Positions 16,977-41,939 of a stretch of DNA of 64,000 nt are shown piece by piece; within the stretch, counting starts at the first letter, position 1; the number at the start of each line of letters is the position of its first letter. The stretch lies in assembly GCA_963971425.1 (NCBI GenBank), contig OZ020518.1, positions 31,378,770 to 31,442,769 on the forward strand, written 5' to 3'. Source of the stretch: Bryoerythrophyllum caledonicum (taxonomy: Eukaryota > Streptophyta > Bryopsida > Pottiales > Pottiaceae). Below the pieces are notes generated by a model. It was not told the DNA's origin. It made no database searches and was given only the letters and a program-made list of their open reading frames with translations. Position numbers and translations under genes: made by a program.

Positions 16977-17209
16977 ACCAATACACTATAAAGTGATTGT
17001 TTGGGGTATATTTTGTTGTATAAAAGTAGAAGGTTGGTTTCGTTGGTCGTCACATTGTTGACATTGTCAGGTTGTTTGGAAAATACATGGTTGTGATGTA
17101 GCAGTGGTCCGGGTTTGGTTCCCGTTGTTCTCGTTTGAGCATCGTTACGATCATCCGACGCTATCGAGCTAGAGGGGCAGGAAATTCCAACAACTTGGGC
17201 CCCTATATT

Positions 17210-17241
17210 AACATGCAATTAAGCAATTATGCACTTGGCCA
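17210..17241 (+). repeat. Left terminal inverted repeat
   Basis: Starts AACATGCAATTAAGC and matches the reverse complement of 31956-31987 at 31 of 32 positions. It is followed by the subterminal motif GTGCACTTGGG, which also recurs inside the right end as GTGCACTTGG. Confidence 0.85.
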
Positions 17242-17781
17242 TATAAAAGTGCACTTGGGTACAACGGCGGCCATTGCGAACAAAAGTGGCCAAATTGCAA
17301 AAAATTAAAAAAAATCAAAGAAAAAAAAAGATTTCCAAAGAAAAAAAATTGAGCTTCTACAACAATATTACGTACAATCATGGTTGTTAATATTGGAAGC
17401 AATTTTTTGGCATTTTCAACTAATTTGTGGTGGCCCCTCGTTAATACTAGATAAATCTGTATTTAATATAGTTTCACAATATTTCAAAGATAGATTTGAA
17501 GGATTGTAGTACACAAACAGGCGTAATCACAGAAAAACATACTTTATGCAAGGGTTGGCAGTTGATTAAAAGATATTCTACGTAGTATATAATGCATACA
17601 ATGGTGGAAACTAAATATAGATTCTTCTACAAATGGACTTAGCACCAATAGTAAAATTACCTTTACTCTATAGGATTAATGGCATAACGTCTTACATCAC
17701 CCTTAGAATATACTATTCTTACACATACACTATATATCTATTAATATACACAACTAGTATACTCTCATAAAGGCACACTAT

Positions 17782-20700
17782 CTACTCCACAGAATTTAGG
17801 GCTGCTTGCAAACTGTCATCATCGATAGCTTCGGTTTGCATTGCAATATATTGTAGTATGTGAGCCTTTGCCGATTGAAGAATGCGAATCCTGCTTTCAA
17901 CCTGCACTCCAAATACATTGCGCTTTCTGCACCCGCTAGCTCCGGACATGGTTCTTTCAGGTGTGTCTACCCATGAAAAAATGCATGCATCTTTCTCTAC
18001 TCAACTATGGCTCTCTCCAGATGGCTCCCAGAATGAATCCATGCAATTTGCATACCGTTGTGCAGAAGACCCATGTCCATCAGCAACCCCCCTTTGGATG
18101 ATGGGCCAATACCAACAAACCTTAATCTTAAGTCTCCATCGGTTTTTTCCTTCCTCAATCACTTTTCCCACATAGAATGGTACACCGCCTTCTATCTCTG
18201 CTCGATCAACACTCAAGGCTATAAACTGTCCACAACGGATATCAGATTGTGGATTAAATGGTGGAAATGGGTCGTGATTACCTTCATACATTGTTCCTTC
18301 TTCGGCGCGTTGCTCAACATAGTTACGTTCTGTTTGATGTGCCCTACGTTCTGTTTGATGTGCCCTACGCACTGCTTGATTTGAGGGTCTTCCTCTACGA
18401 GGACCAAAGTATCCTCGAGACTCGGCATTTGGAAGCATGGCCACTACCTGCTCTACGACATTTACCTCGCGATTTTCTTCACTTCCACCATCCATTACAT
18501 CCAAAGATGCACTCCCTCTAGGTCCGGTGTTGGAGAACTCTGAAGGCCAAAACGGTGAGGTACGATGCTCATTGCTACGATCTTTGTGTGGAAATTGAAC
18601 TAAGTAGAGTTTCAATCTTTCAGCCTTTACTTTTGCCTCACGATTCTTGTCCTCATGCTGCAACCTTTGAATGCACTTTTGTTTATATGCAATGAAGTCA
18701 TCCAACGCCTTCAACTCCCGTTCGTCCGCTGCAAATACTTCCGCAAACGATGGTCGTTCATCCCTATTTGGCAACGACCTCAAAGTTTTCGTCCCTGCCT
18801 CAGGTCCCCATGGATCCTTGCAATAATGTTTGTGTTGTACTCGAACCTCACGAGTCCCTTCTCGATTGTCCACATAGAATTGCATGTAGTGCGGAAATGT
18901 TATGCCCACCAATGAATCTTGACTTCTCAGTAAGTGAGGAGTTATGAACAATTTCCAATCCCATACATTCTCTAGTAGCCGGGCGCTAACAAATGCCTCC
19001 GTAGGAGATGTTCCTCGTTCTATAAGACCAATCATTTCCTTCAAGGAGTCCACGTCCGACCTCTTCAACGTATTTGATATACAACTGAAACGTTAATCAA
19101 TATCTTTGTGTGTATGGCCCACTATAAGAAAAGATAGTTCCACCTCCTGAAAAAATCCCAATCCCACCAATGTAGCACATAGAGCAAACATATAAATGTT
19201 TTTGTTCTCACGCGTGCAGTTGTCGGCCTGAATTCGCAGTGTTGGTGGCAAAAAGCCCCTCCTCCGCAGTACATCTCCAATCACGTACAACAATGTACAC
19301 ACAACTTGATTGCTATCGTGTTTGTGGTGAGCCCCAAACCACAGGTCGCAATATAAACCAATCCCATGTACAAGAGCACCACACAAATGGATCTTCACAA
19401 ACCGGTGTTCAATGTTCTTCACAGTCTGACGCATCCTCGGTACCATGGTCGTGTTCTGGTCCATGCCATCCACTATGATGCACATGTACAACTCAGGGCT
19501 AATATAATACGACCTCTTGAATATCCAATAATGCCTACATTCTTCCATCTGGTTGCGCAGATGCAACATAAACAACTCCTTTATCTTTATCCTTGCATCC
19601 GCATTGGTGGTTCCCTCCATGGCACATTTATACTCCCAACAATGATAACACTTTGAGAATCTCGAGAATGGAGGTACCTGAACGTGGGGATACTTGATGC
19701 GCCACATCCTCCGGAACGAACTCATAGAAATGATTTCTCCATTACAAATTCTCTTGACCTCCTCGTTCACGTAATTGAATACATCAAATTTGGCTGTATT
19801 CATAGGAAGGAGAATGAGAGGCACCACTTCATTGTCACTCTTACGGCGAATACAACGATGAGGTTGAGGACAACCAGCTTCATCAACAAACGATTTAAAG
19901 TAAGCCTCTGCTGCTGACATTCTAGTACTCTCTCTTATCGGATCTGAAAGCGTATTGCCGTGAATCGATGTCACTCTTCCATATATTAGACAGTCCTTCT
20001 TCAATTGCTTAAAGCGCCTCTGTGAATATCCAACCCCAAGAGCGTAGCAAGCATTGCAAACTTCTTTCCCATCTAACTTTGTTACAAACTTGTCTCGACG
20101 AGTTCCTTCCGTCCTTGTGTGAAAAGAAACCAGCATCTGTCTCATCCACGTACTTCGAACTGAAAAATCAGTAGCCCATGCATTATATCGCATGTCCAAT
20201 AGATACCTTGCTGGAACGTCCCTCAAACAATTGCGTTTGCATCCTCCTTGTGCCATTGCAATTTGCACGCTTCTAAGCGATACCTTAGATGCACCTTAGA
20301 TGGTGCAACTTCTGTCAATGATGGCTCCCTTGAATCTCTCCTTCTCCTATTTTGCATAGAATAGGGACGACGTGTTGGTCTAACATAAGCAAATCCATCT
20401 ACATGGGGCAAATCTTGGATATTGGACGGAGTAGATTGGGAAAATGGCGAATTTTCATCTATGGCGTTTGAAGCATGACTATTGCGTGGAGACCTCTGGG
20501 TGGATCCTGGTGTGTTGATGAACTCAGGAAAATCAAATTCTGGGGCCATCACTTGTATAGGCGCTATCTGTGATCCAATGTTACCATGGACACCTGTGAT
20601 ATCGGGTTCTACAGCCACTACACGTAGCAAAGACCGATGCCAACGAATGATCAAGCCCACACACATGCCAAGGCATTCTCCTACAATCTCTCCAGTCCAA

Positions 20701-21044
20701 TGCAATGCATCATCTACCCTAGTGATACGCACCGCCACCTCGAATGGGAACAACTTCGACCCATTCAACTCCATGCCACTTTTCAATGCATGCTCCCTAG
20801 TTGCTAAGCCCACCACATCTCTTCTCTCAGAAAGCAATTCTACTACCGTTTCTAATTCAGATGTCATAATATCAACAGATCTCTGTTGAATTTGCCTTGC
20901 ACGTGCTGCTCGTACTAATCGGGCCCTCACAGAACTATTGGAAAGCATATTATCCCTTTGGATGTGTGGCCGTATCGAAGGAGTCTGAATCGTACGGCTC
21001 TCCATTAACACTATTCTGTATGTAAGAACATTATCGCTGCACAT
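17782..21044 (-). pseudogene. DUF7869-like transposase of the 14.8-kb element
   Basis: Large transposase-like protein, about 1,090 codons if read through its defects. N-terminal part (21044-20223) is variable, with a predicted DNA-contact Arg-rich patch (RRPYSMQNRRRRDSRE). A frameshift between 20268 and 20223 leads into the conserved core: Cys-rich GGCKRNCL and GKEVCNACYALG, then VDGMDQNTT, HLCGALVHG, LRIQADNCTRENKN and FLIVGHTHKDID, the series typical of DUF7869 proteins. The three spaced Asp residues suggest a DDE/D-type catalytic triad. A TAA at 19093-19095 replaces one codon within an otherwise continuous frame, and a TGA at 18001-18003 does the same near the C-terminus; the frame then runs to TAG at 17782. 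A C-terminal coiled region (ELKALDDFIAYKQK..) and an AT-hook-like RRGRPSN lie in between. Family call is from motif memory, not a search. Confidence 0.75.
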
Positions 21045-21227
21045 TAGTCAAAATACATGTACCAATTGTTAACCTTTAAAGCACCATTCATCTGATAAAA
21101 GATATATTTCTAAACACATATTTACTGTTCAAAATATGATGATGGTATTGGACCTTTTGATAAAACACCTTTGAAATGATAAAATTAAGAATTTGTAGAA
21201 CATGAACTCTATATACAGAGTCCTTAA

Positions 21228-22169
21228 CCCTGAAGGTATAATGATATTTTTACACCAAAAACACTTCAGAACTGTTGGATTCTAGTGCAATGGAAAAATG
21301 GGAAACGAAATTTTTTATTTCTATTTTTGACCGTAGGATCTCAATTAAGACTTATTTGAGCATTATGTAAAAAAAAATTCACAAACTTTCACCGCACGGA
21401 TTGAAAGATTATAGTGTTTGAAGTCAACCATATGGTTCATTTTCTTCTTTGCGTGCAGTGGATTAGCAGGCTTTGACTTCCCTTGGTGTCAAATTTTGCA
21501 CTACACAAGGTCTAAACCCATTACCATCTTGTTAAGCATGCTGTTAGTTCCTTGTACACCATTTTTTAGTGGTAGAGGACGCGTGTAGAATATTCCAAAC
21601 AATTGTGCAAAGAGTAGAAGTTCGGAATTTGTTAATTCACATTGTAATTTTTTGTGAACTTAATATGTTTTAGATTCGTAATCCAAATGGTCAATAAGAA
21701 GGTTTACACCACATATTGTTGTGAAAAAAATAAAAAGTGTAAAATAAAAAGATATCCAGGTTTTATTTGGGAAACAAGAAGTTTTTTTGCTACCTTGTCC
21801 AACACTGACTAAGAATGTGTGAAAATGTTTGATTTTGATTGGTATGCTATTTTTCACTAAAGACAAGAACTTATTTTGACAACATCAAGGGAAATAATAT
21901 TACTTTCGAGTACAAAAAATCTCACAATCAACAGAGTGTCGTAGCAAAAGTTTTTTGAGGTGCCCGACTTGCCCGCTCTCCCCATTTGACATTGAAAACC
22001 CTAAAACTTTTTGATCAAATGTCTAATTTAGGTAAAAATTGTTTTCCCACTAAGGTTTTGGTAATGCCTTTCTATAGTAAAATTTTCAAAGAGGAATGTT
22101 GGAAATTGACACCATAGAAACCTGACCGAACGTTCAACAAGCCAATTTTTGACACTTGATCCATTGTAG
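21228..22169 (-). mobile_element. piggyBac-like MITE, full-length copy 2 (942 bp, inverted)
   Basis: Flanked by TTAA at 21224-21227 and 22170-22173. It aligns along its whole length with the reverse complement of 3438-4380, including AACACTTCAGAACTGTTGGA, CCGCACGGATTGAAAGATTA and GTTTACACCACATATTGTTG-type blocks. The two copies differ by a single base in length. It lies about 180 bases upstream of the transposase start and is nested in the 14.8-kb element. Confidence 0.7.
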
Positions 22170-22173
22170 TTAA

Positions 22174-23191
22174 ATATGCTACACCTCTTTTGCATTCATA
22201 AACAATGGTGTATAATGAAACTAATCATTCTTCACATGATGATAGTGAACCTAAATCATGTGTGATGCAACCTTTTGAATCCAAGTGAACTGAAACAAAG
22301 GGAATCCACTGAACCTATGGAAGAAAATGAACCATGTTGTCTACTTGCTATTACTGACACCATTGGAACTTGTTACAATCGCTAATAAAAGAAAGGGTTT
22401 GTACATCCACATAAAGGTTATTCTACGAACAACATAGTACAAAAGATCAATCAAGAATCAATCTTAAACTTGTATAAAAATAAGTGTTTGCCTCAAGATA
22501 CGTTGCAGGTGTTAGCCGTATACGTAGTGATGCTTGATGGCGTTCAACATTTTATCACCATTCCGTCGTTGTTGTTGGACACATTTTTCAACCCTTCCCA
22601 CTTTACCTACAACACATGCATAAAGTTTATATGGTAAACTATGTGATAAAAAACCCTATATGTATCTCCGTATTACATATAGCCCAAAATTTTAATATAA
22701 TATATTATAAAATTTAACACAAGGAGAAACAAAGCAAAAGGTTCAAAGTTCTTAAAGTCAAATTTTGACTATTAAACTTGTGGCACAAAGGTTCCAACAT
22801 GGATATAAGGTTTCTTTGCAAAGCCTAGAGGTCTCTTCTCTTCCCACTTTCTACGGTGAGTTCTCTTGCAATCAAAACCTCATTCATGTGCATTTTTTCT
22901 TCATTCACTGATTTCTATCAGATTTGTGTGTACTGCATAGATTGGAGGAGGAATTTCGCACATCAAGGAGATTTTTACTTGGTAAGCATCTGACTTCGTT
23001 TCAATGCTGAATACAAGGATACAATAGCGTAAGTTCATCTGATATAGTATTTGAGCACACACATGAGGACACCAACTTTGATATGTTCAAAATCGCAAAT
23101 TCCACAAAAGTTGAATGATTACAGATTATAGATGTCAACAACTCGTGAGTGCAACCTACGTACTACAAAAGTAATGAAACCAAAACCACAC
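22174..23191. other. Interior of the 14.8-kb element, non-coding
   Basis: No ORF with coding character. It may hold regulatory sequence for the left-arm transposase, but nothing specific is visible. Confidence 0.35.
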
Positions 23192-23271
23192 TGAACTGAA
23201 ATCAAGTAGTATGAACTGAAATCAAGTAGTATGAACTGAAATCAAGTAGTATGAACTGAAATCAAGTAGTA
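23192..23271. repeat. 20-bp minisatellite A, four exact units
   Basis: Unit TGAACTGAAATCAAGTAGTA repeated four times without interruption. It sits 30 bases before a second, unrelated minisatellite with the same 20-base period. Confidence 0.95.
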
Positions 23272-23300
23272 ATCGCTCGTAGTATGGCACTAGCACTACC

Positions 23301-23400
23301 TGAAACCCTAGCCGCCAAAACCAAACCCTAGCCGCCACTACCAAACCCTAGCCGCCACTACCAAACCCTAGCCGCCACTACCAAACCCTAGCCGCCTAAA
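23301..23400. repeat. 20-bp minisatellite B with telo-box units
   Basis: Five units of CCAAACCCTAGCCGCCACTA, with small changes in the first and last. Each unit contains AAACCCTA, the plant telo-box seen in promoters of translation and ribosomal genes. Confidence 0.95.
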
Positions 23401-23730
23401 CAGAATCTCGTGGAGTACGCGGGACGCCTCATGAAGTAACTGTAGACTAGAGGTGTGCGCGCGCACACCCCCTACTGCTGGTGCTCCTCCATCCACCATA
23501 TCCGTGCAAGTTCGAAAGTGCGCTGTAAGAGGAGATCAAAAAGTTGATGAATACATGGGCAGTGGAGCGCAACGAGAAGGAGAAGCACGAATTCGAGAGA
23601 AGGTTAGGAAACTTGGTTTATGTGTTCAATTAAGTGACGCTTACGGTTTCGCGTAGGCCACGCTGCGTGGTGTGGCGAAGGCAGGCCACGCTTGCACCGC
23701 GCAATCCTCGGCGCGGCCAGGCATCCACCG
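23401..23730. other. GC-rich stretch before the assembly gap
   Basis: Base composition differs from the AT-rich surroundings. An open frame at 23453-23656 lacks recognisable features. GGCCACGCT occurs twice (about 23656 and 23687). The sequence is cut off by the gap. Confidence 0.3.
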
Positions 23731-23930
23731 NNNNNNNNNNNNNNNNNNNNNNNNNNNNNNNNNNNNNNNNNNNNNNNNNNNNNNNNNNNNNNNNNNNNNN
23801 NNNNNNNNNNNNNNNNNNNNNNNNNNNNNNNNNNNNNNNNNNNNNNNNNNNNNNNNNNNNNNNNNNNNNNNNNNNNNNNNNNNNNNNNNNNNNNNNNNNN
23901 NNNNNNNNNNNNNNNNNNNNNNNNNNNNNN
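23731..23930. other. Assembly gap (200 N)
   Basis: Exactly 200 unknown bases; the round number suggests a placeholder of unknown true size. It lies next to minisatellite and MITE sequence, which are likely to have broken the assembly. Confidence 0.99.
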
Positions 23931-25045
23931 TACCCAAAGTACCATAAATGGTGTAGAGAATATCTCAACAATAACTCGTTAAAAATGCCTGTTTTAGTGC
24001 AATTAGCTTGGATGAAAAAATAAAGTTTTTTTTGTAGTTTTAACCGTAGGATCTTAATAACTACTTATTAATTAATATACTCCAAAAAATTCATAAAGTT
24101 TGACCGCACGGATTGAAAGATTATAATGTTTGAAGCTGAGAACAAGCTCATTTTCATCCCTGCGTTTTCTGGATCAGCTGACTTTGACGTGAATTGGTGT
24201 CCAATATTTGCATTATAAAGGGTCTCAAATAATTACCATAATGTTAAACATGATGTTAGTTTGCTATTCACCAATTTTTAGAGGAAGACAAGAAGTGTAG
24301 CATATTCAAAAAAATTGTGCAATGAGTGGAGGTTCAAAAATTATCAATTCACGTTATATTTTTTTGTGAACTCGATATTGTTTTAAATGAGAATCCAAAT
24401 GGTCAATAAGAAGGTTTACATCACATAATGCCGTAGGAAAAATCAAAAGTAAATCATATGAAGATCTCAAAGTTTTATGTGGAAAGGTAGAAGTGTTTTT
24501 GGTACCTTGGCCGAAAATGTGTGACAATGTGTGAAAATAATTGACTTGGATTAATATGTTATTTCACCAAAGAACTAACAACATGCTTAGACGATGGTAT
24601 TGGATTTCAATCTTCTGTTGTGAAAAAGTATTTAGAGGTAGATAAGGGGTGTAGCATATTCAAAGAAATTGTGCAATGAGTGGAGGTTCAAAAATTATCA
24701 ATTCACGTTATATTTTTTTGGGAACTCGATATTGTTTTAAATGAGAATCCAAATGGTCAATAAGAAGGTTTACATCACATAATGCCGTAGGAAAAATCAA
24801 AAGTGAATCATACGAATATGTCAAAGTTTTATGTGGAAAGGTAGAAGAGTTTTTGGTACCTTGGCCGAAAATGTGTGATAATATGAGAAAATAATTGACT
24901 TGGATTAATATGCTATTTCACCAAAGAACTAACAACATGCTTAACACGATGGTATTGGATTTAGATCTTCTGTGGTGCAAAAGTTTTTAGAGGTAGATAA
25001 GGGATGTAGCATGTTTAAAAAAGTTGTGCAATGAGTGGAGGTTCA
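23931..25045 (-). mobile_element. piggyBac-like MITE, copy 3, internally duplicated
   Basis: Same family and orientation as 21228-22169: TTAACCGTAGGATCTTAATA, CCGCACGGATTGAAAGATTA, then the GAGTGGAGGTTCAAAAATTA and GGTCAATAAGAAGGTTTACA blocks. A segment of about 330 bases is duplicated in tandem (about 24290-24620 and 24650-24950, with the start of a third at 24990). The left tip would fall in the assembly gap; the right tip is lost. Confidence 0.6.
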
Positions 25046-25115
25046 AAAATTATTATTCCATATTAATAGTGACTATGGGTTTGTAATAATATATAGGTTT
25101 TTTGAGTGTTGCGTT

Positions 25116-25496
25116 ATGGCACCACCAAATATTGAGAGAATCTGGGAAAGCCACGGTTGGTGGATCGCGGAAGTGGATGAGTCGAATGCCTTCTTGTGGG
25201 TGATGGATTATCCCTTTGAGCTGGGAAAGCGTACATCGGCATTGAGGAAGAGTTTTGGCAAAATCCAGGCAATCACTCTTCGACGTGATGATATGGTATA
25301 CGTTACTTGCACAGTGGGTCCAGGTCAATCGGAGGTGAAGACTTCACTTTCGAAGAAGTTGCTTCTTGCACCTATCCCTTTGAATCTTCTTCAAAATCCA
25401 GGTCAGGTGAAATTCCTCAAATCATTGCAGACGTTTTGGTTGAACATCTCTCTTGCGATACGTACTGCTAGACACAACAACGTTGTCCTGATGTAA
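25116..25496 (+). CDS. Hypothetical 126-residue protein in the giant element
   Basis: Starts at an ATG followed by APPNIERIWES. The frame has balanced composition, several Trp residues (SHGWWIAEVD, AFLWVMDYP) and a plausible globular part up to LLQNPG. A GT at the Gln-Val junction near 25403 could be a splice donor, after which the frame looks less coding. I do not recognise a domain. Its neighbour at 25713 may be a further exon or a second gene of the same element. Confidence 0.35.
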   Translation: MAPPNIERIWESHGWWIAEVDESNAFLWVMDYPFELGKRTSALRKSFGKIQAITLRRDDMVYVTCTVGPGQSEVKTSLSKKLLLAPIPLNLLQNPGQVKFLKSLQTFWLNISLAIRTARHNNVVLM

Positions 25497-25712
25497 ATAT
25501 TTTCAGTGTATAAAATATTTACTTGTTTACCTTTTTGAAAAGATCTTTGATTAGGAGGACGAAACTTATTGGTGACGCTTCCAGTAGCTTCAAGGTGACG
25601 CTTATTGCTCGTGGAATTAATTAAAAGGCGAAAGCCGTAAACATTATTCACCAATTCGAAGTATTCCTTTACGTTCTTAGAGTTTGTGTTTGGATTTGAA
25701 GTTCGAACTAAT
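25497..25712. other. Spacer between two small ORFs
   Basis: AT-rich and without a frame on the plus strand. It could be an intron, but no convincing branch or acceptor was chosen. Confidence 0.3.
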
Positions 25713-26171
25713 ATGTCGAACTGGAGGGTTTTTATGGAGTCACAAGATCTAGAGTCTGAACCGGAGGTAGATTTACAGCTTTCCTTGTCTCAGTTGCCAA
25801 TTCAACCATCCTAGCCGGCGGTTTCTTCACCATTGCCATTTCACCCGCAAGATGAAGTTGGATCTTCTCGTCCGCTAAAGCAGCCTCGTGTTGAGCAGCG
25901 TTGGCATGGTAATCTCCAAAAGGACGCGCGTGTTTTAGTAATCTTACTTCAAACTTGATGTGTTGAACCGGGCACCCGTGAAGTGACATTTGAAGGCAGT
26001 TTCGAGGGCCTGAACGAAGACCATTATTTCTGTATACCTAGGCCAATCGAACTAAGCACTGGCCACCATCGTTGGTTAGAAGGGCAAGTGAATCCTTTGA
26101 CAAAGACTCAACGTGCAGATTACATCGCAAGTACTATCAAGCGCATCCTCAAGTTCTTGCAGATGGAGTAG
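25713..26171 (+). pseudogene. Broken 152-codon ORF in the giant element
   Basis: One continuous frame from ATG (MSNWRVFMESQDLE) to TAG, interrupted only by TAG after QLPIQPS and TGA after VLLQT-type residues. The remaining sequence has coding character: an acidic, low-complexity N-terminal half and a C-terminal half with FEGLNEDHYFCIPRPIEL and TIKRILKFLQME. The TGA has the form expected from a methylated CGA. No family recognised. Confidence 0.35.
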
Positions 26172-27870
26172 CACTGTTCTTTGACTTTAGTTTTTACCTC
26201 TACTTGTTTTTTTATTGAAGCTTTGTACTAAATTTTTGTGTTTTGTGTTTCATTTGAATGTTAGAAGTTAAAAGATGGTAGATAGAGGGTAGTTTACCTC
26301 CTAGTTAGAACTCTAAAGGTTTGTTGACCTTTAAAGATAAGTAGATACTTATCTTTTGAGTTTTCCTAGAGCCAATGGGTGTTTTGAGGCCCATGTGATA
26401 TGCACATGGGCTGATCTTATCCACCTTGGGGGTCTAGAGGATAGGTAGGCATCTTCTCTCTCCCTCTTAGTTCGGTTTTGGGGGAAAAAGGAGTTAGTGT
26501 GCTTTGAGAGAAAAAGGTGTGTGTGTGTAGAGAGCCGAGAGTTTGATGGGCGAGAACTCTGGATGTAAGCAATTTTTTTGAATGAAATTTTGAGGGTTTC
26601 TTTCTCTTTAAGATGCGCTTCCAGAGAGATTATTTTCGCTTGATTTGGAGTTGTGGAAAAAAAGTTACAAGCGTGTGAGTGGAGGAGGGTCTGCTGCCAC
26701 CCAACGAAGAGGAGCAGAGATTCGGGCGGCCACCAAAGTTTGTAGTTTTTGCATCTTTCTTTGAAAATTTCAGGAGTTATAGAACTTTTGTTTAGCTTTG
26801 CATAAACTTATCATTCAAGTTGATTAGAGTTGAATTGCAAAAGTTATGAAGGTTTGAAATTGTGAAGACCCGAGGCCATTTATTGAGAGGGCAGAGGTTT
26901 CAACAAGCCATAACTTTTGGACAGTAGTTTAGAATGGTTTGAGATTTGAAAGGTGTGTGCACCATTGTTATAGCTCTCCAAAAAGCTATTACAATTAAGA
27001 TTTGGAGTTTTGAAGAAGAAGTTATGAGCGATTGAATTTCTAGAAGGGCGGAACTTTGAACTCACATAACTTTCGGACAGTAGTTTAGAATGATTTGAAA
27101 TTTGGAGGAGTGTTAGTTATTTGTGTTAGCTTTCCAGAAAGTTATTAAACTTAGTAGTTGGAGTTTTGAGTCATCTGTGGCACTTGTTTGAAGGTTACAG
27201 CCTTGATGGAATTTTTTCCATTGTGTTTTTGAACACTTCTTTTGAGTTTCTTAGTGTTTTTGAACACTTGAAGACTTGAAGACTTGAAGATAAGAAGACA
27301 TGAAGACTCGTGTGTTGTGGCTTGTGGCTTGTTATTCCTAGCCGGATTTGGAGGCTCGTTGTCTTTTTTTTTGTTATTCCCAGCCGGATTTGGAGGCTAG
27401 TTCTTTTCAATTCTGCTTCGTAAATTTTGTTGCGGCGAAGTGGGGTTGATCACCCACACGGTCGTATTTATGTTGTTCCCACCGGTGAGGCGCGATTGCT
27501 GGTCACCGTGGGTTTGAATTTTAGGAGCCAATCTTTCGGACGGTTTCAGCTTGTGGTCTGGCCGTCCCGTTTGACCCGTCCGAGGCCGTGGGTTCTTATC
27601 ACCTTACCTTTACCCTTAACCCGTTTAGAGCCACCACAGGATAGGCCAACGGGGAGCTGATTGAAGAGTCGAAGAGATGAAGATATGAAGATTTGAAGAA
27701 TTGATGACACGACTGGACTCTCCTGCCATCTATTCCGGTTGCAGCCAGATTCCCCGTGAATTCTCAAAGCGCTCTCCTCTCTACACGACAACGTCTTAGC
27801 CTGTTTAGCGTTATCACCGGAGATGGTGCTGAAGGCTAAGAGGATTATGGAGGAACATATTAGATATGAG
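26172..27870 (+). repeat. Leader region of the right-arm gene, with LTR-like character
   Basis: No protein frame. It holds GA- and TTGAAGA-type short repeats (GAAGACTTGAAGACTTGAAG near 27270), a pair of related blocks containing CATAACTTTNGGACAGTAGT near 26908 and 27066, and a duplicated GTTATTCCNAGCCGGATTTG block near 27328 and 27375. A GGTCACCGTGGG motif at about 27501 resembles Ty3-type primer-binding surroundings, so a solo LTR starting near TGTTAGAAG at 26259 is possible. Otherwise this is the 5' leader and promoter of the gene at 27871. Confidence 0.3.
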
Positions 27871-30800
27871 GCATTTCGGGAGAAGGACCATCACGTGCGA
27901 CAACTCAAGCCCCACCAGCGGAACCAGAAGAAACAGAAGCTTATCGAATTCTTGCTGAGTCGTTGCAACTGGATTGGCGACCACTGGAGGGGGGGAGGGG
28001 AAGTGGAGGCCAACATCCCACCACAACTTCTGAGGTACAGACATTACCGAATCCTCCATTAACGAGTAGACGTCCTACGAAGAGGCTACGGCATGTTGAC
28101 AATGATGTAGCTTCTGGTTCAAGAGAAAGCCCATCAAGTTTGGATCCAAGTGGGAGGAGGTTGATTGGGAGAAGTGCAAGATCGGGTGGCAGGATTCCTA
28201 GGTCGGGGCTCAGGACGTCTGATGGTCATCGTAGGGCCCCTACATCTACACCGGGAGATTTAGCTGATTTGTCAGCCATGGCGCCGAAGGTAGAAGATTT
28301 TCACAACCTTCTAGACAATATACCAGAGGATTTTGAAGACAATGCGGAGATACCCCAGGATCTTCCAACTTCAATGTATTTAATAGCATCAGTGCCTACA
28401 ACAGAGGAGATTGCGAAAGGATCAGTGTGGGGGAATTTTGTGTTTAAGACACACATAGACCGCACTATCTGTGTGAAGAACCCGGAAACAAACCACCGAG
28501 TTTTATCACAGAAGAGGGTCAGAGAAGTATTTAATCGCTTAAAAGACCCAGAATCTGCGAGTCGGGTGAGTAGATTGGTACTTCGACCGATCAGATACAT
28601 CGTGCATACTACCACCGATGATGGTGTCATTGAGAAGGAGGAGCTGCCATTTCCGTTGGTAGGAACCGCACGAGAGTTTGAGCGCATGTCCATTGCACAC
28701 GGGAGTTCTTCTGCACAGGGTGCGATGGGATCCCAGTATTCTTGGCTTTAAGATCATATCATTTGGGAACCGGTGGATGGGCAACACATAGTAGCAACTT
28801 GTAAGTTTGCACAGCAGCAGTGGAGAGATGGTACTATGCCTTTAAATGAGTACCTGGACACGTTCGAGCGGCGGGAGGCCTCTTTTGTGGTGTATGATGA
28901 TCGTTGCTTTTACATTGAGAAATCTGCACGGATCAACGTGGCGGAGTTCCAGAGACAGTCATATTCTACCATGGAGGAGGATTTGAGGAAGATCCGTCAG
29001 ATTTGGGATCTATATGGGAGGCGTGATAGGACACTACGTGCGGACGATGCACGTAGAGCAATTGCTTTGGTGAGTGCGGCAAGTGCAGTGCATAAGTTGC
29101 CCAAGAGGGATGGAGTTGTCACGGTGAAGAGGTTGGCCAAAAATATGGAGGACCTGACCTATCGTGCATGGAATTCGAGCAATGACTGCTTCGAAGCTAT
29201 CATTTAAGTATGTAAGGACTACGAAGACGGCATTTTCTTTTACACCAAGGAGGAAGAGGATAAGTGGAAGGACATGGCGAGGAAGAAAGAGCTGGATCCA
29301 AATGTAGATGTACGACCAACAAGAAAGGAGATGACGCAGAATTGGTCGAGGCCGTTAGGGAGGGTTCCGAATCCATATTATCTTCGGTTGGCAAAGTCTG
29401 CTGCAGCGAAGCGGTGGGGGAGGATGGAGTAAGACCACGTCAAGCATATTACTTTGACGGTGTAAAAGACAAGAATCCACATCCTCGTACGATTGCCGGT
29501 GTGGTTGACCGATATCAGAGACGAGAAGTTGTGATGAATTCCATCCGTTGGTTGATGGTGGAGAACAAGGAAAGTACACCTGATTCCATGGAGGATTTCT
29601 TTTGTAACCGTGTAGGGAAGTATTTTCCTATGAGTAACGCACAACTCGATACGTTTGGGAAGCTTTTGAATGCTGCCACGAAAAAAGCTTGGACTGCTCC
29701 TATGCGGGGGAAGGTGTCTAAACTAGAAGACATAGGCTACCTCATCCCCCCTTCCATCAGGTTTCATTATGGTGACATTGCAACAGGGGGGCGTAGATAC
29801 ATTGGACTGTCCGTGGATGTGGGAGGACTGGCTACTACTAATTGGGAATGGCAGATGGAAGTCAAGAGGCTAGGCCAGAGCGACACAAAGAATCTTTTTC
29901 CGGTTCGGTGTAGAAGAGGGTTATTCCGCACCGACTACATAGAATTGGGGAAACCATGTTTGTGGGTGATTGATTGTCGACGTGGCGGTGAGAGGCATGG
30001 AGATGGTCATTGGAGAGACGCCCAGTTATCTGCAGCTTTTGCACAGCTGACATTATGGATGGCAAATATTGAACGATGGAACGCCATCTTCTTATTACCG
30101 ACGGCCGCGTATGCCAACGAAGAGTTTTTCACGAAGGTGAAGCTTCCAGAGGGATGTACTATGCGACGTGGATGTTGGGCATTTGATCCGAACTCGGTTA
30201 ATCCCTATGCTCTCGATTTTACAGAGAATGGGCGTCTGGAGCAAGTAGTACAACCGATTGGCGATGTTGTGATTTGTATGCAGCACCCTGTGGGTACATC
30301 TCCTGGCCCGAACTATGTTTTTGGAGACGTTCCACTTCCTCTTGTTTTCTTGGATCACTGGAGTGAGGCACGCCAACCCTCTGAAGTTGATTCACTTGAG
30401 AGATCTCCATCAGAGCTGACAAGACTAGTGGGCTCATACTTGCACCGTGGTTGGGGTTTAGTGGCGTGTAACATATCTACGGCCATTCCCACGATCCTTG
30501 AAGGAGATTTGCAGGGATCTGAGGTTTTCATTATTGACGATTGTATAGACAGAGTTTCATTTCTGTACAATGAGTTGTCCGACAATTTCCAAGGACAATT
30601 GTTGATCAGGACTGGTGGAACAAGTATTGGTTGCAACATCGTACCTAAGACTGAAGAGGCGGTTGGTGGAGTGAGGAATGAAGACGACAATGAGGATGGA
30701 GGTGGTTTACATGAGAGATTGCCACGTTCAGGTACCACTGAAGATTTCTCATCTTGCAGTGGTTCAGACACCGATGAAGATGGAGTGAACTACTCTCCTC

Positions 30801-31389
30801 TAGAAGAGAGGATTCCATCAACGCAGCGGGCGGTGGGAGATACTACAGGGGAGACGTCTGCAACACCTATAGAGAAGATGCAAGATACCGGTGTAGTGGA
30901 TGTTGGTTTGGCGGCAGGGGTAGGAGGGAGGCGTACATTTGATGGTCCTAGGCTGGAGATGGAGGAAGAAGAATTGGATTCATTGGAATTTTTTCGGTGT
31001 AGAGGAGGATTCCACAACCTTCGATGCCTTTTCAATCAGAGCCTGTATCGGAGACACAAGAGACGTTCGGAGGTACTCAGAGTGATACCAGACCAGGTTT
31101 GCCTTCCATTCCAAGATCTAGCGTATCCGAGGACATCATTGCAATTCAGGGGGCCTTCTCGATAGAGCGAGAGATGTCCTTCAATCGAGAGGATGGCTTT
31201 TTCTACAATGATGATAGGGTAAGGCATACGCAGGAGGGTGTTCCTGGCAATTACCGATATGTTGAGTGTGCGTCCATTGGCATCGAAGGTGTGGGAGATC
31301 GTCCAGTGCAGGACCATGAACTGTCCGCTATGGTAGGTAGCGCCATTGGACACGTGGAGGGAGTCGTTCCGCCAGAAGATGAGCTCTGA
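27871..31389 (+). pseudogene. Large unrecognised protein of the giant element's right arm
   Basis: About 1,170 codons when read through its defects. The frame opens near 27871, has in-frame TAA codons at 28749-28751 and 29205-29207, shifts frame in a G-rich run near 29420 and probably again near 30990, and ends at TGA 31387-31389. Order of segments: basic disordered N-terminus (RRLIGRSARSGGRIP), a conserved-looking globular part (LLDNIPEDFEDNAEIPQDLP to YDDRCFYIEKSARIN), YYFDGVKDKNPHPRTIAGVV, then LSVDVGGLATTNWEWQMEVK, LWVIDCRRGGERHG and ELTRLVGSYLHRGWGLV.. GSEVFIIDDCIDRV, and an acidic tail. The last part resembles the C-terminal half of beta-class DNA methyltransferases (helix, Gly-rich loop, strand ending in acidic residues), but the catalytic DPPY-type motif is not clear. 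Start and function are uncertain; that it was a real gene is likely. Confidence 0.6.
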
Positions 31390-31955
31390 GCCGTGGAGCT
31401 ATATACTATAGTAGAGCATGCACGCAGTTTAGGTGACAAGTACATTAATATATTGCAGTTTGAGATGTGACTATCGTTCGGTGGGTGGTATATATTTATA
31501 TATTGAGTGGTCCATATGATATGTTTGATTTTAGAATTCCTCGGCAATAGTGTGGAATTGCTTGATTATGTATGTTTTTGCATTATAAAATACAGTGAGG
31601 TACTTTACATTGTCTTAGGAAATTGCATATATATTTTTGTATCTCTTACACATTGTATTTGTAGTGCACTACTCTAAAATCCTATAATAACTCGTAACAC
31701 ATTTATAATCTCTTTGGGCACATGATCATAATTTTGTAGCAGGATTTGCAAACTAGATTAGGTATCATATATTTTCTAAAAAAAGGTAGCGAATGTAAAA
31801 AATATATTATTGATATGAACATGAAGATGCCAATGTATGACATAGCAAACACCCAAAAAAATTGACAAAAAACATACTAAACTTTTGCCAAATTTTGATT
31901 TTTTAAAAAGTTATGAGCAAATAACTTGCGGCTCTCTACCAGCAACCAGTGCACT
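31390..31955. other. Right subterminal region of the giant element
   Basis: AT-rich, non-coding. It contains the motif GTGCACTTGG just inside the terminal repeat, matching the left end. Confidence 0.45.
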
Positions 31956-31987
31956 TGGCTAAGTGCATAATTGCTTAATTGCATGTT
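31956..31987 (-). repeat. Right terminal inverted repeat
   Basis: Ends in GCATGTT and is the inverted counterpart of 17210-17241 with one mismatch. It is followed immediately by TATT (31988-31991), equal to the four bases before the left repeat. Confidence 0.85.
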
Positions 31988-32054
31988 TATTGTGACAAGG
32001 TTACTATTATAAATAAAGGTGGTTATATTTCACTACTTTTTTGAATAGTTGGAT

Positions 32055-34477: not shown

Positions 34478-36200
34478 TTAATAAGGGGTTTTGAAGTTTG
34501 AGGGGTGAGTATGGATAATTTTAAGGGGGGTCGTTGTGTTGGGGAGAGGTTGGTTGTTTTCAATTTTACGTTTATGTAGTAAAATGGACATGGCGTATTG
34601 GATGGCGATGGTGTTAATGTTTTTAAAGGTGGTTTTAATTATTTCGATGGGTATTTTGAAGGTATCTTCTAGATTTTTTATAGATGGGATGAAGGTGGTG
34701 GCCCGAGCGCCAGATGTGATTATAATAAGGGGGTCCACATTCCATCCAAGGTTCATGATGTCGTCAATAAGGGGTTGGTATTTATCTAATTTGTTTTGGA
34801 TTGTTTCCGGGGAAAATCTATCGTTACAATATGTGAATTCAATGAATTGAATAGTGTAGTCTTGGTTTATGTGATCGGGTGGTGGGTCATTATATGATAA
34901 TCCTCTAACACATAGTATGTCCGGTTTGAGCCTAGCATTGCAATGACATCTTTGATTTTCACATGAACATGGGAATAGCCAGGGGGGGACCGTATTTTCG
35001 TGTGGGTTGTTGTTGAAGGTTCCGGCATTCATTAGGATAAAACATCTCGATTTGTTGTAGGAGGTGATTAGCTTTCGAATTTCCCATACCGCTTTATTAT
35101 GTCTTTTAACGATTAAGGAGTGTATGTGGTGATTTTGGCATTTGAGTAGGACATGAAGCCACGTGTCGGGGTCCGTTGAGGGGCACATGGGGCATGTTAT
35201 GGATGGGAATCTTTCTATTCCATAGAAGAGTTGTTTGCAAGCGTTTCCCATATACCGGCCGGTACAGAATTTGATGAGGCATGTTTTTTGTGAGTCGGAG
35301 ATGCTAGGATTTTTCCAAAATTTTGTAGAGAGTTCATTATCTATGTTATTGTTATTAGTCCATTTTTCAATGTTAGGGATATTTTCTGTTATTGTGTCGA
35401 GATTGTTGTAGAGGCCTTGTTTTTGGAGGTATTCGTCCAGAAATCTAATTGGGCCTTTGTCGGGGGTATCTTCTCTGGAAGGCCAGTCTTCTCTTTGGAA
35501 GTAGTATGGGGTAGCATGAGCATGTTTGTGTAGGTCTTTGGCCGTTTTGTGTGCTTTCTCTCGACCTTCTTTTGCTAATTTATCTGCTTGTTCATTGCCA
35601 TCAATATTGGCATGGGCTCTCACTTTGTGGAAGGTTGTGGTGTGCATTCGATTCTGTAACATTTGAATTATTGACATTAATATTGTTTGGTTGGGGTGGC
35701 TATTGTGAAGGGTAGGGTGTATTATTTGAGTATTTAGTAGGTAAAGTGCATTTATGCAATCAGTAAATATATGAGCGGGTTCATTATTGTATTTTGTTGT
35801 GATGATTTGTAAAGTTTTGTGAATGGCCATAAGTCTTGCTCTTAGGATATTTTGTAGTCCATGGAGTCTTTTGGCTAGTTTAATTTCTTTGGTAGGATTG
35901 TATATGCCATATCCAGCTTTTTGTCTTCGCCAATTCCCCGGGTTAATTTGTTCTGGTGGCTTAAAGGATCCATCAGTATAATAGCTATGTGCGGGATTAA
36001 ATTTTGGTGTCGAATGAGTTGGATAGTTAGGAAGGGGGGGGCGGTGTAAACAGGATGTGTTGTTAATGTAGTTTAGTTTGGACCATTTTTTACTTCGGTT
36101 AACGGATGTTTGTATGGGTGTAGGTGGGACCAGTCTTGTGTATAATCTGTGTATGTTTAAGTTTTGTGTTATGGAGGTGAGTTCGGCAATTCGTTCTATG
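34478..36200 (-). pseudogene. LINE ORF2 C-terminus: RNase H, knuckle, PD-(D/E)XK nuclease
   Basis: RNase H begins with HSYYTDGSF (first Asp), continues RARLMAIHKTL where the usual Glu is Arg, then AHIFTDCINALYLL (Asp) and VRAHANIDGNEQADKLAKEG (final Asp). A 450-codon open frame (35830-34478) holds the rest. A CPMCPSTDPDTWLHVLLKC segment follows, like the zinc knuckle of LINEs, then CSCENQRCHCNARLKPDILC, IQFIEFTYCNDRFSPETI, NKLDKYQPLIDDIMNLGW and IITSGARATTF. The PD..E-x-T..K..KY..GW spacing matches restriction-like endonucleases of R2-type elements. The missing Glu of RNase H is also absent from the copy at 16034, so it may be a property of the family. Confidence 0.75.
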
Positions 36201-36259
36201 GTGCTGAGGGTTTGATTTTGATGGTGGACGCATATTATTTGTAATGTAGATGGTTCAAT

Positions 36260-37780
36260 TCAGGGTTTTTTTAACTCGGGTGGAGTAGTAGGTTCTTCGT
36301 ATGATATTGAATCTGCTTCAAATAATGCAAGTATGTGAGAATCTGAAAATGGGTTTAAGTGTTGGTCACTGTTTTGGTACCAGTTGTGGTTTGGTGCTAT
36401 GATGATTGTATTTGTGTTGTTTGGGTCTTGTTTGGCGGCAAGTCGGGCCCAATGTATTGCTTGTTCCATTTCCTTCTCATTGTGGGGGTGGGCTATACCA
36501 TTACCTATCCATTTGTAATCAAAGGTTTTTCCTAATGACCCGAATATTTTGTCTCGTTCAAAAGGGGAGTAGAATTTTTTTTAGTTTGGTAGAACATGTG
36601 ACCGGGGAAGAAAAGTATGATTGTTCAATGTTAAAGGTGGAGATTAGCAAGTCTAAAATAGGTGTGGGTATCGTGTATTGCGCATTTTTGAGAGGGTCAT
36701 TTTTTGGGATTCGGTATTTATATCTTTGGTGTAGCCAAATTAGTTCGGTTTCAAAGGGTTGGGTTGGTGGTTCTATGTTTGTAGGAGATTGTAGTTTTGT
36801 GTTGTATTGATTCCATAACCATTGGAGTCGAGTGGTCGGAATAGAGTGCAGATGTCGTCCATTTTCTTCATATAAGTGTGCTTGACTATTATTTATTTTA
36901 ATTGTGTTTGAGGATGTAAGGATATCATTTTCGGGGTTACATTTTGTTGTATAAATGTTTAAGAGTGGGATAAATATGGGTGGAGTTACGGATCTGGGGT
37001 CTGAGAACTGTTCTTGAGGGTGGTGAGCTAGGATGATTTCCGAGTAAGTTTTGTTTTGAATTTTTTGGTAGTATTGTTTTAATTTTTCGGTGTTATGTGT
37101 GGAGGTATTGGTGTCGTGTCGTGGAAAGAGGTCTCTTTGAGGAAGCCATTTGTTGTATGTATTATTATTGTGTTGCCATTGGCATAAATATTTTGTGTAG
37201 TTATTTTGTATATTATTTGTGTCTGTGTGTTGGATATGTTTGTGGTGTGTGATGTTGTTAATGGGGTATGTGGTAGGATTTTTGGAAATGTATATTGGAG
37301 GACGGGGATGTTGTGTGTGTGGAGGATTAGGGGGATTGACTTGTGTATGGATGTTTCTTGGGGTAATGTTATTGTTGATGGTAGTGAATGCGTCTTGAAG
37401 TGTATAAGAGTGTGCGTGTGTGTTGCAAGGGTTATGACATGTAGTGGGGCATGTTGATTGGCAAAAAAGTTGTATAGCAATATTTAGGGCACTTTTTAAA
37501 AGTTTGGATGGGGTGAAGTGGTAGTTTTTGAAGTCTTCATTATTCATGATGTGCCGTTAGGTAAAGTGATTTGTTTTAGTTCAAAAATATTTTTTGAGAG
37601 GAGTTTTTGTAGAAGATTTTGAGAGAGTTGGGCATTTAGTGTGTTGTGATTTGGTGTTTCTTGGCGCCATATTATTTCTAGTGGTGTAGGGTCAATGAGG
37701 AAGTTTGGGAACGTACTTTTAAGGTGGACTTTAGCTATGTGTTTTAGTAAGAAGAGTGTTCGTGTGATTGGTGATCTCAT
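36260..37780 (-). pseudogene. LINE ORF2 linker between RT and RNase H
   Basis: About 500 codons in three pieces (37780-37544, 37547-36558, 36469-36260). Rich in Asn, Thr, Pro and His, with few conserved features; one segment (EQAIHWARLAAKQDPNNTNT followed by IIIAPNHNWYQN) looks globular. The first two pieces overlap by ATGA, the stop of one and the ATG of the next. No domain recognised. Dualen elements are described as carrying extra domains in this general area, but nothing here proves one. Confidence 0.5.
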
Positions 37781-37894
37781 ACAATTACTTTTTTTGATTC
37801 TGGGTATATTTTTGCCTCCACCATATTGGGCGAGGACATAATGAGTTAATCCATTATATATTTTTCCAAGTCTTCCTTTGTCATTTAGAGCATT

Positions 37895-38915
37895 TTATAA
37901 TTGTTCACCTATACATCGGAGATATGCATTTTTGAGGGAGAACGCTTCAAGCCCAAATAGATTATGTGGAAGTTGGATTATCGCATTTGACATACATTTT
38001 GGTAGTCCGCATATGGTTTTTTGTACGGTTATTATCTTCTGGTCAAGTTTTTTGATAGCTGGCATAGAGTATGGCACACTGTAGAAGCTGTATGCTATAC
38101 CTGGGCGTATTACTGTATCAATCATTTTTATTTTTTGTTTCATGGTGGCCAGACATGTTGTTAGTTCTTTGCATTGTTTGATGAGTTATGTGGTTGTAGT
38201 ATGAATTTGGATTTTCCATTTTAGTGAGGGAACAAGGTTTGTACCTAGGTATATGTAGGGTTCATTTTGGTGTAATATAGGGATTGGTTGGTTGCGGTAA
38301 TTGATGTTAGAAGCTTGCATTAGGGCTTTGAAAGTGGTTGGGTTTATTTTGGATTTGTTAGGGCATCCGGTAGCGGCACATTTTGGGACTCCTACGTCCA
38401 TACCGGTCCATTTGCAGTATCTATTAATTTTATTGAGTTGTATTTGAATAGATTTAATTTCGCTAGTTATGACTGCGAGGTTGTCAGCATATGCTGCAGA
38501 GTTTATGGTGGTTTGTGATGTACCAAAGGTGTATCCATTATTACCTCGCTCCAGCCATCTTAGTAGTGGTTCTAAGAATATAATAAATAAGTATGGGCTA
38601 AGGGTATTTCCTTGTATAGTTCCTCTTTGAATGGGTATTGGTTTTGTTTTTCCGAAGTGTTCTCCAATATAGTAAGTGGATGATTGGGAGTAGATGTTTC
38701 CAATAAGTGTAGTTGCATCTTTTGGGAAGCCAAGATCCGTCATTATTGCTAATAGTCTAGTATGGTCGATCGAGCCAAAGGCATTTTTGAAATCGACGTA
38801 TAATATGATATATCTTGATTTGTAAAGCGCGCGTCTTTTAGTGCGGCTATTATAGTTTGTATTTGTCGGGCGGTACTTCTTTCTGCTCTAAAGCCTTCTT
38901 GGCTATCATGTAGGA
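37895..38915 (-). pseudogene. LINE reverse transcriptase
   Basis: Copies element RNA into DNA at the nicked target. Readable order: SQEGFRAERSTARQIQTIIA, a frameshift near 38830, YIILYVDFKNAFGSIDHTRL (first catalytic Asp), PIQRGTIQGNTLSPYLF, then AAYADNLAVI. The last box should be YADD; the second Asp is Asn (GAC to AAC). Thumb segments follow (YIYLGTNLVPSLKWKI; IDTVIRPGIAYSFYS). In-frame stops occur at 38186 and 37895 and just upstream at 38917. The upstream finger motifs NKAPGPDRIPNSIL and LLYKKGDPSTLSNHRPIALA are in the preceding ORF (40275-38917). Confidence 0.8.
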
Positions 38916-38916
38916 T

Positions 38917-40593
38917 TTAAAATTTTTCACCGTATGAGGATAAGATGTAGGTAAGTGTACTAGTGAAGAGTTTATATATTGTCTTGGCTAATGCAATTGG
39001 TCTATGGTTGGATAATGTAGACGGGTCTCCTTTCTTGTATAGTAAAATTGTTGCGCTTGATTTCCATGAAGCCGGTATTTGTTTTTGTTTGTAACAGTGG
39101 GAAAAGAAAATGAATAGGAGTTTGTGAAATCTTGGAGGCATGTTTTTGAGTATTGAATTTGGTATGCGATCTGGGCCTGGGGCTTTGTTGTTACCCAGGT
39201 TTTGAAGGCATGTGTCATATGTGGCTCTGTTAAAGTACGTATGTAGTGGATTTTCTGGTTCGCCTCCTTTGTCTAAGGTAAATCCATCAAAGCCATGCCA
39301 TGGGTATTGGCGTACAGCACATGTACAATCAATTGAATGTTGTGGTTGGTAATTGCATGTTGGTACTGTGGGTCTATTGTTTTTTGTTTGTTGATTGAAT
39401 ATTTCATTTGCGATGTCTTCGGGGCTAGTTAAAATATTATTATATTGATCTATGATACAATCTAGTGGTGGGGATTCTAGGTTCTTAAAGACTTTTCTGT
39501 AAATTTTCTTAGGGCTAATTTCATATAATTGTCTATATTTTGAGATGGCTTTTTTAATGTTATCTTTAGTGTATTTTGTGGTTATTTTCCGGGCTTGTAT
39601 ATTGGCATTTTTTGCAATTAGCGCAATATCTTTTATCCATGTATCATGGGGTATATCCGGGGGCGGTGGAGTCGGGATTTGGGTATGGTGTAGAGTTAGT
39701 AGTTCATTGCATATGGGGTGGTTACGCCATTGGAGATTATTTTTTACAATTCTTATAGTTTTCCGTATAATATGATATGTAGTAAGATGTTGTTTCCAAG
39801 TTTTAGAGAACTTGCGGGGTAAATAGCCTCCTTGTTGAGATGTTCTGTTTGTTGTGTGGGGTATTGGGTTGGCTCTACAAGTTTGTTCTAGTGTGTTGGA
39901 GATTTTTTTGATGAGTATATCTAGGGTTTGACACGCTTCTTGCCATTGTGTTTGTGATAGTTGGTTGTTGTTTTCAAGTCTATTTATGAGGGAGTCTGTT
40001 TGCGTGGATTTTTCTTCAAAAAAATTTGTGGAGAATTGTGTATCGGTTTTTATGTAAGTGAGGTTTAAGTTTTCGGTGAAGTGGCGCCATTGGTAGTCTA
40101 TGGTTTGAGGAGGGGTGTTATGATTCCCATTTTGGCGTCCTATTAATGCTATGTCTCTATTGAAGTCTCCGCATAGTATATATGTGTGATTGGGGTTATT
40201 ATTTATTTGAGATGTGATGGTGTTTTGTATGTCATTGATCAAGCTAGTATCTTCGGGATGGAATGGCATATACATGTGAAGAACTAACCATGGTTGTAGT
40301 GGATAATTAGTGATTTTTATTATTTCGAGTTAAGGAGATATGTTCATTGGGGTGGGGATTTTTTTGATGTTGCCCGGGAAAGCATATTTTTTATGTATTA
40401 GTGTAAGGAGGCCACTTCGGCCCGGTGTGTATGGTCTTCGTTGTTGAATGCATCTTGTAAGTGCATGTGTATTGTTGAAAATGAGTTTATAGTCTTGGAA
40501 TAGCTTTTGAATATATTTTGTGGATATTGTGGCGGATAATTTTGTTTCTTGTATAGCTATAATGGCTGGCGGTGTGTTTGTGTGTGTGACCAA
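38917..40593 (-). pseudogene. LINE APE-type endonuclease and RT N-terminus
   Basis: AP-like endonuclease that nicks target DNA. Visible motifs: PAIIAIQETKLS (metal-binding Glu), YTPGRSGLLTLIH, and YILCGDFNRDIAL (GDFN). An in-frame TAA at 40330 splits the domain. After GDFN the sequence goes TYIKTDTQFSTNFF and then to a linker; the expected final SDH motif is not seen, so a short internal deletion near 40000 is likely. The downstream part carries the RT fingers. The frame is otherwise open for 452 codons. Confidence 0.75.
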
Positions 40594-41244
40594 AGTTTGT
40601 AAGCTAGGAAGGGCAGTGTTTAGAGAGGAGGCATTCCATGTGGTTATATATGTGTTTTCTTGATTTGAGTTGTTGTTTTGGTTTTGAGTTGTTGTTTTGG
40701 AGAAGGTATGAGATTGTTGGGAAGGTATGGGAATTTTTGTTTTATAGTATCTTGTGATGGTGGTATATGATGATTGTGTAGAAAATCATATAGTTCTTTA
40801 TGTATTGACGTATTATTTTTTATAATATTTTGGTTATTTTCAATGAATGATATATAAGGATGTGTTAATATGGGTGTTAATATGTCTTTCGGGGGGGTTT
40901 TGTAGGTTAGCAAGGGAGTTTAGTAATGTATTAGTCCATTGAGTTATGTTTGGGCTTTGTGGGTTTAGTAGGAGGTTACATTTGTCTATGTGTGGGTGTA
41001 TTGTAGTTACTATGGCGTATAGGATGTGTGTTGAGGGGTGTTCATTTTGTTGTTGTATATATTGGATAATGTGTGGATGTGTATTGGTATATAATTGGTA
41101 CAGTGTATGTGTTGATTTTAGTATAGGTGCAAATGCTTGGGCAATATGTCTGTATTCCGGTTGTAATTTTATTGTGTTTGGTATGAAGTATAGTTTGGCA
41201 TTCTTTTTGTGTTGGGTTGGGTGTCTTTTTAGTATGTTTGGCAT
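40594..41244 (-). pseudogene. LINE segment between 2A motif and endonuclease
   Basis: Starts at MPNILKRHPTQHKKN directly after the 2A-like motif and runs 134 codons to a stop at 40840; a second frame (40913-40644) overlaps. Helical-looking, Ile/Asn/His-rich, no recognised domain. It would be the N-terminus of the enzyme-bearing product if the 2A skip worked. Confidence 0.45.
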
Positions 41245-41271
41245 AGGTCCTGGGTTGGTTTCTATGTCTCC
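41245..41271 (-). other. 2A-like ribosome-skipping motif GDIETNPGP
   Basis: Nine codons that read GDIETNPGP, a perfect match to the 2A consensus (G/H)D(V/I)ExNPGP. Upstream residues YELLIIL give the hydrophobic helix that 2A needs. A TGA (41272-41274) now stands directly before the Gly; one C-to-T change from CGA would explain it. 2A sequences are known from APE-type LINEs of trypanosomes and several animals, where they separate the lead peptide from the enzyme part. The sequence match is certain; activity is not testable here. Confidence 0.8.
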
Positions 41272-41832
41272 TCATAGTATTATTAGTAGTTCATAATGTG
41301 GCGATTTGTTATTATGTTTGACAGTTATATGTTTTTTTGTTTGTCTAGTATACTTTTTTGTTTTGTTTTTGATTTTTTCTTTGTTTTGAAAGGTGTAAGT
41401 GTTATGTTTTCTTTCTTTTGAGTGGGTTTCCCTTGAACTATTTCTCTTTGGTTTATGGTTTTGTTTTGGTGTTTTGTTTTGTATGTTGTTTTTGTTAATT
41501 GGTTTGGTGTTTGCTTGTATATCTTGGTTTGAGTTAGTCTTAATGTGTGGGTATTGGTTTGTATTTTTGCATCTTTTTTCGTATGTGGTGTATGTTGTGT
41601 TCATGTTTGTGTGTGTATGTGTTTTGAAGGTAGGATTTTTTCTTATGTATGTATAAGTATTTGTATGTATGTTTTGAGAGTTTGTAGTTGTATGTATTTT
41701 GGTAGTTGTATTGGTATATGTACTTGAATATGTATATATGTATTCCTCTTTGTATAGAGTAATGTATTTGTATTGAATATGAAGTTTAATACAATGTTTA
41801 TACGCCCCATGTACGGGTGTATGATTGTGCAC
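41272..41832 (-). pseudogene. LINE lead segment upstream of the 2A motif
   Basis: Open 186-codon frame very rich in Thr, Asn, Lys, Tyr and His, for example NRNSSR-like and KERKHNTYTFQNKEKIKNKT. No ATG starts it (the first start-like codon is GTG at 41832), so it was probably part of a longer ORF2. Low complexity argues for caution, but its frame leads exactly into the 2A motif. Confidence 0.4.
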
Positions 41833-41939
41833 TACTACGCATAGTGTATTAGTATAGTATCCATAATCTATACTAGACTTTTGTGTATGTATTTGGTATA
41901 GTGTATGGTCAATGGTAATTACTTTGTAGTCCTTGAAGT

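Follow-up and report, generated by a model that had tools for sequence, protein, structure and literature searches.

We analyzed a 64,000-nucleotide stretch of DNA from the moss Bryoerythrophyllum caledonicum (contig OZ020518.1, assembly GCA_963971425.1, positions 31,378,770 to 31,442,769; hereafter the window, whose own numbering is used throughout) and found that the segment at 17210–31987 is a copy of a recently active, large cut-and-paste transposon family with members of ~12–14 kb. The element is bounded by 32-bp terminal inverted repeats (TIRs) that are identical at 31/32 positions and flanked on both sides by TATT, and it carries two outward-facing genes, a DUF7869 gene at the left on the minus strand and a gene without a Pfam match at the right on the plus strand, all as a preliminary description of this DNA had stated. 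We consider it fairly likely that the family is a giant Sola-1-like element. The features of the window copy are as follows:

17206–17209, left target-site duplication, TATT
17210–17241, plus strand, left TIR, 32 bp
17782–21047, minus strand, left gene, DUF7869 protein, 1,077 codons in open copies
21223–22158, internal repeat region
23731–23930, assembly gap of 200 N within the element
24026–25065, internal direct repeats with a unit of ~354 bp, related to 21313–21900
25116–25483, plus strand, first part of the right gene (MAPPN...), interrupted by a nested insertion
25484–27782, nested insertion, 2,299 bp
27783–31389, plus strand, remainder of the right gene, with stops at 28749–28751 and 29205–29207 plus frame breaks
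31956–31987, minus strand, right TIR, 32 bp
31988–31991, right target-site duplication, TATT

The window element is a damaged copy, with a nested insertion, a 200-N gap, stops, and frame breaks. The 14.8-kb distance between its ends given in the preliminary description is correct, but the gap and the 2,299-bp insertion contribute to that length. The insertion is flanked by a 12-bp duplication matching at 11/12 positions (25472–25483 and 27783–27794) and is missing from all nine genome copies that span the 25483/27783 junction; the frame at 25035–25496 and the frames after 27783 therefore belong to one interrupted gene. It has no obvious inverted ends and, when compared with the window and the fetched loci, matches only itself. 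The left gene contains in-frame stops at 18001–18003 and 19093–19095 and a frame break within 20223–20295, judged against an open 1,063-residue relative (P0006) and the open copies.

The family is abundant in the 437 Mb of host genome searched. Exact matches to the 30-base end, taken in its common AACAC form, number 362 on each strand (forward and reverse), against none for a reversed-pattern control. Searches with 101 bp of the left end (40 of 980 candidates scored) and of the right end (40 of 857 scored) returned 40 and 41 matches, respectively. From the 39 left-end matches besides the window we sampled 20, omitting two on short contigs and 17 lower in the list, and fetched 10 kb from the left end of each. 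The start of the right gene or more is present in 14 of the 20, nine of which match past window position 27783. A paired right end was found for 14/14 copies followed, giving element lengths of 12,063–13,943 bp, so the two ends do not occur independently. The six copies outside these 14 (L010, L012, L018, L020, L021, and L024) have no predicted right end, and their match to the window breaks off earlier or is rearranged. A second occurrence of the 21223–22158 repeat region, partial in one case, is present in 14/20 sampled copies.

More closely spaced ends also occur. Several inward-facing exact TIR pairs lie ~2–6 kb apart on contigs C1 and C2 among the first 100 places listed (for example, C2:3103772/3109759, C2:6412906/6417845, and C1:12772680/12774874); these are probably internally deleted, non-autonomous copies. 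Among the places listed on C1, 22 exact TIRs fall in the first 12.8 Mb, two at 12.8–62 Mb, and four up to 65.2 Mb, making 12.8–62 Mb a long stretch almost devoid of exact TIRs. The host is photosynthetic, as its genome yields 58 chlorophyll a/b-binding family matches, including 14 at E < 1e-45.

Insertion generates a 4-bp duplication. An exact duplication flanks 12 of the 14 copies with paired ends, in 12 different words (acaa, tctt, tatt, agtt, ttaa, aaca, tatg, gttg, ttac, tgtt, acat, and atat), where the chance of a 4-bp match is ~0.005 for each copy, calculated from base composition with 60% AT assumed. In the remaining two, the flanking words agree at three of four bases (tcta/tata, L014) or form an exact 4-mer, gaat, shifted by one base (L015). 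Unfilled sites bear out the duplication at two loci. Copy L016 interrupts a related DUF7869 gene whose insertion site is covered by 22 distinct loci, each with a single 4-mer, AGTT in 21 and AATT in L020, and its joined flanks are 78.7–81% identical to them. Copy L013 is inserted in a repeat and, after removal of one duplication, gives four gap-free alignments across the site, three in the window and one in L018, which are 75–90% identical and have 4-mers of their own that differ from TATT.

Both genes remain intact in part of the family. Six of the 20 copies retain an uninterrupted left frame of 1,077 codons, and a further copy (L027) has a frame of 1,066 codons with an altered GHTH motif. 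The six open left genes are 96.2–99.4% identical pairwise, and third codon positions change most in 14 of 15 pairs, the exception being L013–L017 with 30 differences. In L049, where the right gene is open, its protein counts 1,331 residues when read from the first ATG. Six right genes were pieced together from overlapping sequence, and that of L026 forms a single frame of 1,348 codons, as do the right genes of L013 and L017; both frames (1,077 and 1,348 codons) are thus open in three of the 20 copies, L013, L017, and L026, the right gene of most other fetched copies having been read only in part. A genome search with a relative of the right protein (P0082; 41 of 1,599 candidates scored) places a frame of at least 1,333 codons without an internal stop, according to the search output columns, at 24 of the 41 scored sites. 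Relative to L049, third-position changes are in excess in 5/5 other copies of the right gene, weakly so in L023 (13, 16, 22). The high identity and the third-position excess in both genes therefore point to recent movement and to selection on both proteins, and further copies share the two-gene architecture seen in the window.

The left protein is a putative transposase. DUF7869 (PF25273) matches its middle part with an E-value of 1.3e-33, and 68 proteins match the left gene, with relatives of ~1,060 residues that reach 86% identity and more distant ones, at 30–34%, in Chara braunii, Branchiostoma lanceolatum (two), and Mercenaria mercenaria. Asp509, Asp512, Asp591, His627, His629, and Asp633 are among the residues invariant in 19 chosen relatives. 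In sequence order, a predicted hydrophobic strand carries DGMDQ (IIVDGMDQ), a second carries QADN (LRIQADN), and a third strand is followed by GHTHEDID, in which an aspartate comes just after GHTH, an arrangement that would fit a transposase of the RNase-H fold with a catalytic triad of aspartates (DDD). Searches of solved structures in the PDB gave no match to the left protein, even with a profile, and Pfam detects no integrase domain. No relatives in viral contigs were confirmed for the four queries P0006, P0001, A1, and A4. One annotated Chara braunii protein (P0057, CBR_g4107) fuses DUF7869 to a glycosyl hydrolase 28 domain and is likely to be a chimeric gene model that spans a transposon.

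We propose that the left-gene transposase would bind the 32-bp ends, excise the element, and insert it into target DNA at cuts offset by 4 bp, the repair of which would leave the observed duplication. The divergently transcribed second gene would supply a conserved protein of ~1,330 residues that accompanies the transposase in full copies. This protein is most likely an accessory DNA-binding factor acting on the element's own DNA, where it might regulate the element, shield it from silencing, or help to assemble its ends.

The 4-bp duplication narrows the classification. Duplications of this length are known in piggyBac, Kolobok, and Ginger or in some of their members, and piggyBac and Kolobok use TTAA, whereas only one of the 12 words found here is TTAA. 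Tc1, hAT, MULE, CACTA, and Harbinger duplicate 2, 8, 7–12, 3, and 3 bp, respectively, and fit none of our sites; PMC10741241 gives 2 bp for Tc1 and 7–12 bp, about 9, for MULE. The preliminary description, which compared the element with these five alone, concluded that it fits none of the standard plant superfamilies. That conclusion is not borne out in this form, Sola having been omitted: the same paper describes Sola as a plant TIR superfamily with a DDD transposase, a 4-bp duplication, TIRs of 11–1124 bp, and lengths mostly of 2–9 kb with some above 15 kb, present in Physcomitrella (PMC10741241), and a Physcomitrella Sola1 appears in a table of PMC9033089. The duplication matches here in 12/14 exact cases and in two empty-site comparisons, and the 32-bp TIR and the 12.1–13.9 kb lengths fall within the ranges given there. 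The layout has a precedent in Sola1-1_Ec32 of Ectocarpus, a 21.5-kb element that carries a large accessory gene opposite the transposase strand (PMC12477816); the large second gene of the moss element likewise lies opposite its transposase gene. Its accessory protein differs, with 1,104 residues and recognised ParB-like and N4C/N6A-methyltransferase domains, whereas the moss protein has ~1,330 residues, unusual motifs, and no domain recognised by hidden Markov models; the same paper cites similar ParB-methyltransferase proteins for green and red algal transposons. Sola2 (PMC3627910) is alike in its AT-rich 4-bp duplications, short TIRs, an 888-residue transposase in one family, and extra genes in some families; its extra gene is Fanzor1, unlike here, and its duplications are AWWT or similar, whereas those of the moss family are less restricted (for example, gttg, ttac, and tctt). 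Neither PMC10294476 nor PMC8230255 was decisive.

Several observations weigh against the Sola assignment. It draws on the duplication, a predicted DDD chemistry, and the layout, with Sola transposases compared by description only. A broader alignment of 58 rows shows variation within the triad and has no wholly invariant column: among rows with a letter, Asp509 is kept in 48/51, Asp512 in 48/54, Asp591 in 52/54, His627 in 53/53, His629 in 46/53, and Asp633 in 52/53. Although Sola is reported from bacteria, we found only three weak DUF7869 matches (25–27%) in prokaryote-labelled contigs; these lie on contigs of 4–6 kb labelled cyanobacterial or Bacteroidetes (L050–L052) and probably reflect eukaryotic contamination of those assemblies. 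DUF7869 elements could instead constitute a superfamily of their own, apart from Sola and likewise with 4-bp duplications and two proteins. Such independence, which we find distinctly less likely, would account for the GHTH...D signature common to relatives from Chara, amphioxus, and clam, for the failure of DUF7869 to match the PDB even as a profile, and for its absence from the literature searched; the structural hallmarks tested nonetheless agree with published Sola descriptions, and the two-gene, opposite-strand layout has already been published for a Sola-1. The candidate new superfamily of the preliminary description thus keeps DUF7869 as its probable transposase, while its novelty as a superfamily is weakened by those published Sola traits and the Ectocarpus layout. 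The gap inside the window copy could also hint that two ends resembling miniature inverted-repeat transposable elements face each other by chance, or that the assembly was joined across the N; we regard this as exceedingly improbable given the 12 exact duplications, and the shared order and paired ends in 14/14 copies rule out both facing ends and a scaffolding artefact.

The second protein is harder to place. Searches through residues 450–1070 found ten relatives of 816–1,416 residues at 46–72% identity, besides five shorter ones. By eye, we take the series NHRVLS...LVLRPI...EPVDGQHIVAAC to resemble a ParB/DGQH-type box, and LWVIDCRR, followed ~160 residues on by GWGLV...TAI...GS.IIVIDD, to follow a motif order like that of permuted DNA methyltransferases, presumably with altered catalytic and S-adenosylmethionine motifs. 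Profile searches lend this resemblance no support. The window gene has no Pfam match; 16 aligned sequences match no ParB or methyltransferase model in Pfam and NCBIfam at E ≤ 1; PHROGs returns unnamed families only, in one or two members of the set; a genome-wide search with ParB_N is empty, although the same model responds in 11/14 controls; and the expected positions lack the usual DPPY and GxG motifs of methyltransferases. Comparison with solved structures gave nothing better than E 0.41. Single-member matches to Beta_helix_2 (Pfam) and phrog_35330, at E of about 0.002, were judged to be chance. We retain the ParB-methyltransferase reading because the Sola1-1_Ec32 report describes such a protein encoded on the opposite strand (PMC12477816), and the moss protein may be related to it in plan. 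The second gene might have no role in transposition and be a passenger or a captured host gene, as the lack of a known domain would allow and as the frequency of accessory genes in Ectocarpus giant transposons suggests (PMC12477816). We think this unlikely: copies of the gene differ with a third-position excess, its start or more is kept in 14/20 copies, and seven of the ten relatives have lengths of 1,205–1,416 residues at 51–72% identity.

Outside the element, the window contains a retroelement resembling a long interspersed nuclear element (LINE) on the minus strand (34478–45504), with endonuclease, reverse transcriptase, and RNase H matches. The stretch between its reverse transcriptase and RNase H matches PCIF1_WW below threshold at E 6.7e-4, scoring 19.7 bits where the cut-off is 31.1, and this match is probably due to chance; the right protein of the transposon has no similarity to this weakly PCIF1-like stretch. 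A DEAD-box helicase fragment lies on the minus strand at 1825–2649 (E 4.3e-6), with long overlapping frames on the opposite strand.

A bolder reading, to which we give little credence, makes DUF7869 a distinct eukaryotic superfamily with a D, D, GHTH...D signature in green algae, plants, and animals, whose giant plant form needs the second protein; that protein would be a ParB-methyltransferase derivative that has lost its methylating motifs and now binds the element's own DNA as an anti-silencing or end-assembly factor. The family gives DUF7869, so far an unnamed Pfam domain, a specific probable role: it would be the transposase of a transposon that is present in high copy number, has moved recently, and has sharply defined ends and duplications. 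Should the second protein prove to be a modified ParB-methyltransferase, the idea that giant transposons carry an epigenetic or DNA-binding accessory factor of their own would become testable.

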